From positions 1-53,903 of the forward strand of contig CALZUA010000022.1 in NCBI GenBank assembly GCA_945829235.1: a DNA stretch of 53,903 nucleotides, read 5' to 3'. Source of the stretch: an uncultured Clostridia bacterium. Its GTDB lineage: Bacteria > Bacillota > Clostridia > Oscillospirales > Ruminococcaceae. Shown in pieces: positions 26,490-32,611 of this stretch (the first letter of the stretch is position 1; every line of letters starts with the position of its first letter). The position numbers were made by a program, and so were the translations under genes. The notes under the pieces were generated by a model. It worked only from the letters and a program-made list of their open reading frames with translations, had not been told where the DNA came from and did not search any database.

Positions 26490-26847
26490 TGAACGCTGTT
26501 CGTTATATAATCACGGCGCGTGGGAACGTGCTGAGGAAAGTCCGGGCATCACAGAGCAGGGTAGCTGATAACGTCAGCCGAGGGCGACCTTAGGGCTAGT
26601 GCAACAGAGATATACCGCCGTGACTGCTTGCAGTCACAGCAAGGGTGGAAAGGCGAGGTAAGAGCTCACCGGAGTTCGGGAGACCGAACTGCCATGTAAA
26701 CCCTATCCGATGCAACGCCGATTGGTACGGGGAGCAACGCGTCTGCTCGGCGCGCCTCGTTTAAGGCGGCTTGACTCTTTCGGTGACGAAAGAGCTAGAT
26801 AGATGATTATACACGACAGAACCCGGCTTATCGATGAACAGCGTTTT
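26490..26847 (+). ncRNA. rnpB: RNase P RNA
   Basis: The catalytic RNA that matures tRNA 5' ends. Diagnostic conserved segments are present in order: GAGGAAAGTCCGGGC, AGGGCTAGTGCAACAGAGA, ATACCGCC, AAGGGTGGAAAGGCG, GGTAAGAGCTCACCG, and near the 3' end ACAGAACCCGGCTTATCG. The ends pair: AACGCTGTTC (26492-26501) with GAACAGCGTT (26836-26845). Length is about 358 nt. It lies immediately downstream of its own promoter and upstream of the repeat mosaic. Confidence 0.97.
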
Positions 26848-30455: not shown

Positions 30456-31160
30456 ATGGAAAAAATCAGTATCTTAACAACGCCCGTCCCGTTCGATAAA
30501 AGCGATTATCTGAGCCTTTTGTCGCTGTCGGTCGGCGCGGCGATTTCACGGCAGAAGAAAATGGGCGAGCTGGTTATCGGCGCAAGCGGCTGGAATGTTG
30601 ACGTGAGAAACCGCCGCATAAAGTTCGGCGAAAACGAGTTTGACTGCGGGATAATCGGCTCGGAGAGCTATCAGAGCAACACTTGGCTTTGGGGCTGGGC
30701 AAACACGGAAAGCGGCGTGCCTGAGATTTGCTTTGCGCCGTCAAGACGTGCAAAGCGAAATCTTCCCGAATGCGCGGAGTTCAGTACGGGTAAATTTATG
30801 CTCGATGAAATTCACACGGGGCACAATCTCTCGATGATAACGGTTTCCGCGTCCGAGAAAAACGCTTGCTATTACCGTTGCCCGTATGACGGCGGAGCGC
30901 TTTTTGTGCAGATTGATGGCTTGCCCGAGAGCGTGTTTGCACCGATTTCTCTCGATGACCTCGCGCGCGAGTTTCTCGAAATCATCGGCTCGTTTTACTG
31001 CGACCACAAGCTGACGGCGGCGGGTTTCCTCCACCAAAACGGCTGTTCCTTCGAGGACGGCGGCGATTATATTTCAGCATCGGACGGTGCGAGAACGCTG
31101 CGGTTTGATTTCGAGAACGTGGACGAGCTGTTTCGCGTTGTCAACATTTCTTTACAATAA
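30456..31160 (+). CDS. DUF6882-like protein, unknown function
   Basis: A 234-residue protein with the motif T-W-L-W-G-W-A-N at about residues 74-81, which I associate with DUF6882, a family with no known function. Upstream of it is G-I-I-G-S-E-S-Y-Q-S-N, downstream are several beta strands and Cys-rich segments. It is cytoplasmic, with no signal peptide. AAAAGGAG precedes the ATG. The stop is only about 15 bases before the start of the first small-RNA repeat unit. Confidence 0.65.
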   Translation: MEKISILTTPVPFDKSDYLSLLSLSVGAAISRQKKMGELVIGASGWNVDVRNRRIKFGENEFDCGIIGSESYQSNTWLWGWANTESGVPEICFAPSRRAKRNLPECAEFSTGKFMLDEIHTGHNLSMITVSASEKNACYYRCPYDGGALFVQIDGLPESVFAPISLDDLAREFLEIIGSFYCDHKLTAAGFLHQNGCSFEDGGDYISASDGARTLRFDFENVDELFRVVNISLQ

Positions 31161-31192
31161 TTTCACAAGATTTTCACGCGAAAAACTTTGTC

Positions 31193-31220
31193 TTGTCATA
31201 AAAAGCTGTTATTATATAAC
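31193..31220 (+). promoter_or_regulatory. Promoter of twin small RNA copy 1
   Basis: TTGTCA (31193-31198) and TATAAC (31215-31220) are 16 bases apart. The upstream element TTTCACGCGAAAAACTTT (31172-31189) is conserved in copy 2. Confidence 0.7.
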
Positions 31221-31221
31221 T

Positions 31222-31335
31222 GTAATAAGCAAGCAGAGCTTATTACCGAAACATTGCCAACCACCCTTTTCATAAATTACCAACCAAGCGTTACAGCCTC
31301 GGGGAGTCTTCCTCGGGGCTGTAATGCTTTTTTAT
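31222..31335 (+). ncRNA. Candidate small RNA, copy 1
   Basis: About 110 nt. It begins with a perfect 9-bp hairpin GTAATAAGC/GCTTATTAC (31222-31246). An unpaired C-rich stretch follows, containing CCAACCACCC and ACCAACC (31256-31287). It ends in a strong hairpin TTACAGCCTCGGGGA/TCCTCGGGGCTGTAA (31291-31324) with a T6 run shortly after. No start codon or open frame is present. 54 bases (31252-31305) are identical to copy 2, while the two hairpin loops differ. The layout of hairpin, C-rich seed and terminator is that of a base-pairing regulatory RNA. Confidence 0.7.
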
Positions 31336-31399
31336 GACAATGAATTGCGAAATTTTTATCAGCTGAATTTCACCAACATTTCACGCGAAAAACTTTATC

Positions 31400-31427
31400 T
31401 TGTCATAAAAACCTGTTATTATATAAA
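31400..31427 (+). promoter_or_regulatory. Promoter of twin small RNA copy 2
   Basis: TTGTCA (31400-31405) and TATAAA (31422-31427) are 16 bases apart, mirroring copy 1 at a 207-base offset. Confidence 0.7.
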
Positions 31428-31428
31428 T

Positions 31429-31541
31429 GTAATAAGCAAGGGGAAATGCTTATTACAGAAGCATTGCCAACCACCCTTTTCATAAATTACCAACCAAGCG
31501 TTACAGCCTCGGGGACACGTCCTCGGGGCTGTAATGCTGTT
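31429..31541 (+). ncRNA. Candidate small RNA, copy 2
   Basis: Same architecture as copy 1: 9-bp hairpin GTAATAAGC/GCTTATTAC with a different, longer loop (AAGGGGAAAT), identical 54-base core (31462-31515), and the same end hairpin with loop CACG in place of GTCT. The T run after the hairpin is weaker (GCTGTTATAAC). It may read through towards the convergent terminator of the GH5 gene. Confidence 0.68.
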
Positions 31542-31546
31542 ATAAC

Positions 31547-31578
31547 AAAAACGGCTCGGTGAAAAGACCGAGCCGCGT
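31547..31578 (-). terminator. Terminator of the GH5 gene
   Basis: CGGCTCGGT (31552-31560) pairs with ACCGAGCCG (31567-31575) around GAAAAG; read on the minus strand it is followed by TTTTTG. Confidence 0.85.
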
Positions 31579-31582
31579 TGCT

Positions 31583-32611
31583 TTATATCATTTTAATAAG
31601 TTCATCGTAAATCGGCTTGCGGATATCGTCGATAAATCCGAAATCCATCTCCTTATACGACCACACCGAGCGCGAAATTTTCAGCTTGTCAAATGTATCG
31701 CGCATATCACGGTGCCAGCGAAGCGTGTCTTCAAGAGGCGCAACCTCAATTACACCGTATTCGCCGCAGTAAAGCGGAGCGTTCATTTTCTCGGCAAACT
31801 CGATAGCTTCCTTCATATAAAACTCGAAAAATTTCGCGTCAACGATTTCCTCGGTGTATCCGTCAAAGACCTCCCAGACCTTCTTTTCGGGGAACTGCTT
31901 TGACTTTTCGATATATTCGGCTGTCGGCGCGGGGTAAGACATAACGTAATCCGCGGGCATTCCGTCAAACCAGTACGCTTTCTGATGCGTGAAAATCAGC
32001 GGGTCATAGAGATGGAACGTGTACACAATCCTGTCGTCAAGCGGCTTTTCCAGAAGCGCAAGTCCTTTGATGCTGTTGTTGTGGATACCGCCGTAGATGA
32101 TGTAGTTTTTCGGCGCAATTTTTCTGATTTCCGTTATAACGCGCTTTGCGATTTTATTCCACGGCTCGGCAAATTCGTCATCGGTGATTTCATTCAGGAT
32201 TTCGTATGCAATTCTGTCGGATTTGTCGGCATAGCGCGCCGCAACCGCTTTCCACAAATTCACGAAAATGTCCTGATATTTCTCGTCCGAGAAGAAGCCG
32301 GTTTCCTTTTCTCCCGGGTCAAAGCAAAAGCCCATTGTCTTGTGCAGGTCGAGAATTATGTTCAAGCTGTGCTTTTCCGTCCACTCGACAGCACGGTCGA
32401 GATACTTGAAAGCGTCCGCTTTAAGCGCGCCGTTTTCGTCCAGAAGAATGTTGAAATCAAACGGCAGACGAACGTGGTCAGCACCCCAGCTAGCTATTTT
32501 CGCGATATCCTCTTCCTTGATGAAATTCTCGAGGCGGTCGAGCGAGTAGTCGCACTGCGAAAGCCAGCCGCCGAGGTTTACGCCCTTTTTAAATCCCACA
32601 AAATCCCTCAT
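31583..32611 (-). CDS. Glycoside hydrolase family 5 (cellulase-like), cytoplasmic
   Basis: A 342-residue (beta/alpha)8 GH5 retaining glycosidase. The proton donor is Glu141 in Y-E-I-L-N-E and the nucleophile Glu284 in Y-C-G-E-Y-G. The N-terminal K-K-G-V-N-L-G-G-W-L and L-D-L-H-K-T are typical GH5. No signal peptide is present, so it probably hydrolyses imported oligosaccharides rather than polymer. AGGAGG precedes the ATG, and the start is 11 bases after the lysA stop, so it is likely in the same transcript. The exact substrate (glucan, mannan or other) cannot be told. Confidence 0.88.
   Translation of the reverse strand: MRDFVGFKKGVNLGGWLSQCDYSLDRLENFIKEEDIAKIASWGADHVRLPFDFNILLDENGALKADAFKYLDRAVEWTEKHSLNIILDLHKTMGFCFDPGEKETGFFSDEKYQDIFVNLWKAVAARYADKSDRIAYEILNEITDDEFAEPWNKIAKRVITEIRKIAPKNYIIYGGIHNNSIKGLALLEKPLDDRIVYTFHLYDPLIFTHQKAYWFDGMPADYVMSYPAPTAEYIEKSKQFPEKKVWEVFDGYTEEIVDAKFFEFYMKEAIEFAEKMNAPLYCGEYGVIEVAPLEDTLRWHRDMRDTFDKLKISRSVWSYKEMDFGFIDDIRKPIYDELIKMI

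Follow-up and report, generated by a model that had tools for sequence, protein, structure and literature searches.

Tandem small-RNA genes of an uncultured Clostridia bacterium: a predicted OmpR-type promoter box shared with htrA and a core complementary to translation starts

Tandem sRNA units and their relatives

The window analyzed here is a 53,903-nucleotide stretch of DNA, contig C22 of an uncultured Clostridia genome (G000; 3.2 Mb in 52 contigs). Two tandem small-RNA (sRNA) units span positions 31161 to 31545 of the window, between a DUF6882 gene on the 5' side (30456 to 31160, plus strand) and a GH5 cellulase gene on the 3' side (31583 to 32611, minus strand). Direct repeats between the copies comprise 75 nt at 91% identity and 97 nt at 93% identity, with spacings of 207 and 210. 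RNA folding gave each unit a 5' hairpin of 9 to 10 bp, about 40 unpaired bases, and a terminator-type hairpin of 19 to 20 bp. The folds have stability z scores of −7.8 and −6.3, and none of 200 shuffled sequences was as stable.

Both copies lie on the plus strand. Copy 1 is about 113 nt long (31222 to 31334, the start placed from the −10 element and the end from the T-run) and consists of a 9-bp 5' hairpin (31222 to 31246), a conserved unpaired core, GCCAACCACCCTTTTCATAAATTACCAACC (31256 to 31285), antisense to SD-spacer-AUG AAA, and a terminator hairpin with a T-run (31286 to 31335) that is supported by folding and compensatory changes. Copy 2, with ends placed by inference, measures about 113 to 117 nt (31429 to 31545). 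It has a 10-bp 5' hairpin with another loop (31429 to 31456), an unpaired 30-nt core identical to that of copy 1 (31466 to 31495), and a terminator-type hairpin with a weak T-run (31496 to 31545), delimited by folding and repeat comparison. In both hairpins, the loop sequences differ between the copies while the stems are kept.

A first-pass annotation of this DNA had proposed two tandem sRNA genes, each with its own promoter and terminator, and the repeats, the folds, and the aligned promoters described below agree with it. The terminator part of the proposal needs qualification: a terminator-type hairpin is present in both copies, but the T-run at the end of copy 2 is poor (GTTATAA), which makes its terminator weaker than that of copy 1. 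The annotated interval, 31172 to 31541, does hold two units, but the block shared between them begins further upstream, at about 31159. A separate hairpin lies 3' of copy 2 (31551 to 31576), with its T-run on the minus strand; it is the terminator of the GH5 gene and may also serve copy 2 as a backup terminator.

In an Rfam 15 search of the window, RNase P RNA (class A, 268 bits, positions 26495 to 26846) was the sole family at its gathering score and none was found at the sRNA units, in line with the annotation's remark that no known family was recognized. By E value, the best subthreshold trace in a 501-base search was to VR-RNA of Clostridium perfringens (RF02417; 21 bits; E = 0.019). This likeness is weak and limited to the 3' end of VR-RNA, and the score is far under the 100-bit gathering score of a model that has 397 positions. 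Coding potential was considered and rejected, the short TTG frame of the source clade being unconserved and, by eye, cut off elsewhere by a stop directly after CATATAA.

Of 37 same-genus genomes, 33 (28 read first and five added later) have the exact core in an sRNA context; G002, G003, G005, and G032 do not. A DNA search of 61 genomes detected one unit at 81 to 89% identity in three sister genomes, and many further genomes gave shorter matches in the region of the core. Most genomes have a single copy; G000 has the tandem pair, and two separate copies exist in G004, G012, G015, and G021. Because the flanking genes vary among genome groups, no single neighbor accompanies the sRNA unit. The annotation had also considered that such units might be scattered in many copies as a transposable repeat, and we found only one or two exact-core copies per genome. 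Alignment of 30 homologous units revealed 29 invariant columns, 22 of which fall within the unpaired core, and compensatory changes at 12 of 18 terminator pairs. The latter strengthen the earlier view that differing loops on preserved stems reflect functional constraint. The 5' hairpin, present in both window copies, is a less constant element: its sequence changes freely, and by eye at least five homologous units (L008, L010, L011, L013, and L014) have it in weak form or lack it.

A scan of 84,980 species genomes for the exact core yielded 50 loci. On reading, 41 of them were judged to be real, that is, to have a box and/or a strong terminator; they include L437, which is cut by a contig end, and L475, which is without a box. 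All 41 come from records whose titles name Oscillospiraceae, Ruminococcaceae, or uncultured Clostridia. The remaining nine, found outside these groups, lack both the box and a strong hairpin and appear to be chance matches. A covariance model run over the order gave hits in 24 of 295 genomes at an E value of ≤0.01, two of them from the source genus. The core is absent from the ten covariance-model loci read outside the genus (9 of 22 genomes), most of which, by eye, share just a terminator-type hairpin; at three of them (L271, L273, and L294), a different sRNA-like unit is seen.

The promoter box and the genes that share it

Comparison of 28 distinct boxes delimits a regulator box in front of copy 1 (31161 to 31199, plus strand) that reads TTTCAC, TTTCAC, AAACTT, and TGTCAT in 11-bp phase and is followed by a −10 element, TATTAT with an extended TG (31210 to 31215, from the promoter alignment). 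Box scanning and promoter alignment place the box of copy 2 at 31368 to 31406 and, with 29 promoters aligned, its −10 element (again TATTAT with an extended TG) at 31417 to 31422. The same layout exists in all 29 units: a TTTCAY-like half-site, 5 nt, TTTCAC, 16 nt, a TNTCAY-like half-site, 10 nt, and the −10 element, which begins 49 nt downstream of the first base of the box. Among the 28 distinct boxes, C is invariant at positions 14, 25, and 36 and strongly favored at position 3, which indicates four half-sites with an 11-bp period. Phased direct repeats that abut the −10 element are typical for OmpR-family regulators, and from its sequence each sRNA promoter is a fourfold 11-bp repeat of the TTTCAC type in an OmpR-type layout. 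The first-pass annotation had instead read the promoter as TTGTCA-16-TATAA; the aligned promoters place the −10 element, TATTAT, 5 nt upstream of that TATAA, and the supposed −35 element TTGTCA belongs to a regulator half-site. It had overlooked the fourfold box and its sharing with htrA and a response regulator, as well as the anti-start-codon core and the leader unit described below.

When 61 genomes were searched for the box plus the −10 element with at most one mismatch, 26 matches were obtained, compared with one for the reversed pattern. Eighteen belong to sRNAs of the window type, four precede hsp20 genes (an identity checked by Pfam for one of the four), three belong to another sRNA-like unit, near recR, and one lies in G044. 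At the hsp20 promoters (L110, L115, L117, and L118, at about 1470 to 1560), the TTTCAC box is accompanied by an inverted repeat that we take to be CIRCE-like, and hsp20 might possibly be under dual heat-shock and envelope-stress control. A looser search for two half-sites gave 63 matches versus 14 for the reversed pattern, some of which look like chance. The looser pattern precedes ABC ATPase genes in 12 genomes of the genus (a second ABC ATPase in three) and, in another family, a gene for a lipoprotein with FKBP and trigger-factor domains; Pfam was run on one example per kind.

A half-site model was built from the 28 boxes of the sRNA loci; on five genomes left out of the model, it scored positive in four and not in G025. 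Against 2,124 gene upstream regions, sampled from parts of four genomes, its top two hits were the upstream regions of an orthologous OmpR-family response regulator gene in G000 and G034, the regulator gene lying within the sampled parts of two genomes. The third-best hit was htrA of G000. Furthermore, all 20 htrA-like loci scanned in the genus (20 of 23 same-genus genomes, with G001, G018, and G021 left out) score above at least 99.6% of the 2,124 control upstream regions, with a search zone that was slightly wider for htrA (300 nt, extending 90 nt beyond the first Met) than for the controls (250 nt). Outside the genus, the box was found at one of 12 htrA-like loci. Trypsin and PDZ domains were identified in the htrA-like protein of G000; against TIGR02037, all htrA-like proteins scored below the cutoff.

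Scanning G000 for the box with three mismatches gave 45 matches versus 13 for the reversed pattern, one of them inside a CRISPR array, and these figures indicate that weak box matches arise by chance. The CRISPR match (C16:28516) was dropped for its position; a further match lies on C11 (L062). The large CRISPR array of G000 (L061, 6000 to 12000) contains one box-like spacer with three TTTCAC repeats phased at 11 bp.

The candidate response regulator gene of G000 (C2:106757-107434, minus strand) encodes receiver and Trans_reg_C domains and is followed by a HisKA/HATPase kinase gene. The best 25 of its 95 NCBIfam matches are all below the cutoff; a PhoB-type model is the best, and no CssR model is among these 25. 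The place of the recognition helix reads, by eye, TIDTHIKMLRNNL. In six of six loci read, a second sRNA-like unit is situated downstream of the box and ahead of the start codon of the regulator gene (e.g., L243, 7450 to 7620, minus strand, and L342, 400 to 530). This leader unit is box controlled and terminated and has an anti-start-codon core: a short hairpin (by eye) is followed by the unpaired stretch CAATGTTCATARTTTCCTC and a GGCGTTCTT-type terminator, and the complement of the core, GAGGAAAYTATGAACATTG, consists of an SD-like sequence, a spacer, and a start codon. A seventh match to the leader core (L341) lacks a box and looks like a chance occurrence.

The unpaired core and its predicted pairing with translation starts

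The best-conserved part of the sRNA is complementary to GG-TAATT(A)T-ATG-AAAA, i.e., the SD end, spacer, start codon, and a Lys codon. The SD antisense is partial, the complement GGUUGG not being a canonical SD sequence. Pairing at starts was set against pairing at ATGs inside the same genes (350, 250, and 250 genes). In this comparison and in the gene-set statistics below, starts were taken from a simple ORF finder of our own instead of a curated annotation, and the duplex energies ignore mRNA folding. The window sRNA prefers starts: shuffled sRNAs did as well in 0 of 40 cases in G000 and in 1 of 40 each in G017 and G034. The same preference was obtained for the leader unit, with 0 of 40 shuffles as good in both G000 and G034. 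The first-pass suggestion that the C-rich part pairs with ribosome-binding regions is thereby supported in its general form.

At the level of whole gene sets, the ten best duplexes together beat 100 of 100 shuffles in G000 (879 genes in 838 kb); elsewhere, 11, 52, and 5 of 100 shuffles were as good in G017, G020, and G034, respectively. Genes starting with ATGAAAA rank high in G000 (AUC, 0.751; 1 of 100 shuffles as good) and in G017, G020, and G034 (AUC, 0.69 to 0.76; 2 to 3 of 100). Predicted lipoproteins, recognized by a sequence pattern (27 of 879, 11 of 407, 18 of 429, and 12 of 409 genes in G000, G017, G020, and G034), are enriched in G000 (AUC, 0.660; 1 of 100), G017 (0.664; 5 of 100), and G020 (0.654; 2 of 100), an enrichment that overlaps with the AUGAAAA match itself and that failed in G034 (0.546; 35 of 100). 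Hydrophobic N termini in general are clearly enriched in G017 only: the AUC is 0.537 in G000, and 8, 1, 34, and 57 of 100 shuffles were as good in the four genomes.

The clearest perfect site, of 16 to 18 nt, occurs in five genomes, in the 5' untranslated region of the gene for a DUF2871 membrane protein. It is intact in five of 24 upstream regions read, nearly matched in two, and absent from G000, and two of the five carriers (G002 and G005) are without the exact sRNA core. Since the site is confined to a subclade, DUF2871 was ruled out as a universal target. The two-module antisense GGTTGG-N5-9-ATGAAAA matches mostly the sRNA genes themselves; among ten other loci that were read, no start region recurs except in two sister genomes, where the frame is very short. 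The shorter antisense GGTAATT-N1-2-ATGAAAA is found at true starts of several lipoprotein, prepilin-like, and membrane-protein genes, and it also matches cytoplasmic enzymes and nonstarts.

A proposed stress regulon and its relation to known systems

Taken together, these data make it probable, in our view, that the window encodes two tandem copies of an sRNA that would be driven by an OmpR-family regulator under envelope or secretion stress and act as an antisense block of AUGAAA starts. The four TTTCAC-type half-sites would be bound by a response regulator of the OmpR family, one that would also govern htrA and the regulator's own operon; this would switch on the sRNA promoters, with envelope or secretion stress as the most likely trigger. 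The RNA of about 113 nt would then display its unpaired core between the 5' hairpin and the terminator. With its antisense match to the SD end, spacer, and AUG-AAA, this core (UUUUCAUA(U)AAUUACC) is predicted to pair with the starts of AUGAAA mRNAs and to block ribosome entry, with the mRNAs of lipoproteins and other exported proteins as the likely main target class. That the sRNA switches resemble that of htrA and that the core mirrors a start signal suggests that the RNA probably lowers protein production under envelope stress. Control of the sRNA by a candidate htrA-linked regulator is well supported at the level of sequence, translational blocking is moderately supported, and the list of individual targets is weakly supported.

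There is a small but appreciable chance that the RNAs, while real and regulator controlled, titrate or guide a protein (an RNA chaperone or ribosome-binding factor) and do not act by antisense pairing. The invariance of the core over some 20 nt, longer than a typical seed, would fit such a role, as would the fact that long perfect mRNA complements are few and not kept throughout the genus. A protein-titrating RNA would not readily account for the preference for starts over internal AUGs, which beats 39 to 40 of 40 shuffles in all five tests, nor for two unrelated cores with the same anti-start logic.

The first-pass annotation had guessed at antisense action on one particular gene, the window's own ECF sigma gene (42853). 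Its duplex does have the best raw energy of 879 genes (−30.9 kcal/mol), and the top eight by this measure include three sigma-type genes, but it drops to 23rd (z = −3.0) after correction for target composition, 16 of 100 shuffled sRNAs reach an equally low minimum somewhere, and the remaining sigma-type genes scatter widely in rank. We regard repression of this gene as unlikely.

The regulator might also be of a different kind. The Pho regulon was considered first because of the 11-bp repeats, and both the geometry, which is of the Pho-box kind, and the candidate regulator's best (below-cutoff) match to a PhoB model would suit PhoB/PhoP control and a role in phosphate starvation. Five same-genus pstS-like loci with a phased repeat read TTTTACA/TTTAACA and not TTTCACA, having W instead of C at half-site position 4, whereas the htrA and hsp20 promoters carry the TTTCAC/TCAC type. 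We therefore rejected the Pho regulon as quite improbable. A remnant of a mobile or repetitive hairpin element, which a tandem duplication with hairpins might bring to mind, is a very remote prospect: each genome has one or two copies, the flanks vary, paired bases change in a compensatory way, the unpaired core is invariant, and the regulator box is shared.

The antisense, stress-linked sRNA that we favor has its closest counterparts in the csRNAs of streptococci, which are multicopy and CiaRH dependent (PMC3091779, PMC8186281). In these accounts, CiaR sites are 6-bp direct repeats every 11 bp (NTTAAG-N5-TTTAAG) situated 10 nt before the −10 element, 32 of 61 csRNAs have two stem-loops flanking an unpaired anti-SD/anti-AUG region, and htrA is among the genes most strongly regulated by CiaRH. 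The sRNAs described here are likewise multicopy, with an identical 11-bp spacing of OmpR-type repeats and an identical 10-nt offset to the −10 element. Their unpaired region is comparable in its complementarity to SD and AUG, with CAU and a start preference, although the anti-SD part is partial, and at the level of the box, htrA shares half-sites and offset with the sRNA at the 20 genus loci scanned. On the other hand, there are four half-sites of the form TTTCAC/T with an invariant C (TTTAAG in csRNAs), the recognition helix of the candidate regulator reads TIDTHIKMLRNNL by eye versus VVEVYVSKVRKKL in CiaR (PMC3091779, PMC8186281), the core sequence and the bacterial class are different, and a terminated sRNA-like unit is found in the regulator's own leader, which the portions of those sources at hand do not mention for csRNAs. 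Judged by half-site, recognition helix, and sequence, the window sRNAs are outside the csRNA family; in our analysis, they resemble the streptococcal system in another bacterial group, yet with another regulator, box, and sequence.

In Listeria, LhrC1-5 and Rli22 are multicopy sRNAs that are LisRK dependent, induced by envelope stress, and paired with SD regions, including those of mRNAs for surface and uptake proteins (PMC5880928). Multiple copies, two-component induction under envelope stress, and pairing with the SD region recur here, the last two as predictions, whereas LhrC has three CU-rich single-stranded sites and our units one anti-start core. The CssRS secretion-stress regulon of Bacillus comprises a TTTTCACA box, an autoregulated two-component operon, and control of htrA (PMC6749698). 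TTTCAC-type half-sites occur here at htrA and at the regulator operon, with the exact TTTTCACA octamer often off by at least one base, and the accessible part of that source mentions no sRNA for CssRS. Neither do those of PMC9386232 and PMC3408451, which mention sRNAs or CssRS, link the two. The box and the predicted control of htrA appear to point to secretion stress of the CssRS type. In a literature search that lacked most subscription journals, no published account of such an sRNA was found. We regard the units as a real sRNA family with a probable regulon, kin in kind to csRNAs and LhrC.

More tentatively, and with somewhat less than an even chance of being right, we propose a secretion-stress two-component system of gut Oscillospiraceae that acts in two ways: (i) through HtrA and chaperones and (ii) through a set of anti-start-codon sRNAs that would throttle the AUGAAA class of exported proteins. 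One of these sRNAs would be embedded in the leader of the regulator itself, and a class of mRNAs rather than single targets would be addressed. The logic would be that of CiaRH and the csRNAs, either independently evolved or kept from a deep ancestor of the Firmicutes. If so, an uncultured group of gut Oscillospiraceae gains a defined envelope-stress regulon with sRNAs, and streptococci are not alone in coupling htrA control to anti-start-codon sRNAs. In enterobacteria, outer-membrane stress sRNAs act on translation to reduce the load of exported proteins, and whether Gram-positive secretion-stress systems do the same becomes a testable question.

Other sRNA-like units were seen in the course of this analysis. 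A third box-controlled unit is located beside recR in G004, G012, and G015 (L103, L104, and L105, at about 1500 to 1700); its features are an anti-SD-like stretch, ACCTACCTCCCC, and CCTTCC in the loop of the terminator. In another genus of the same family, a different unit is present twice in G144 and once in G195 (L271, L273, and L294), and at L271, the one locus of the three that was scored, the TTTCAC box is absent. This unit carries TTTTCATATAT-TTCCCC before its terminator and is anti-start-codon in design.
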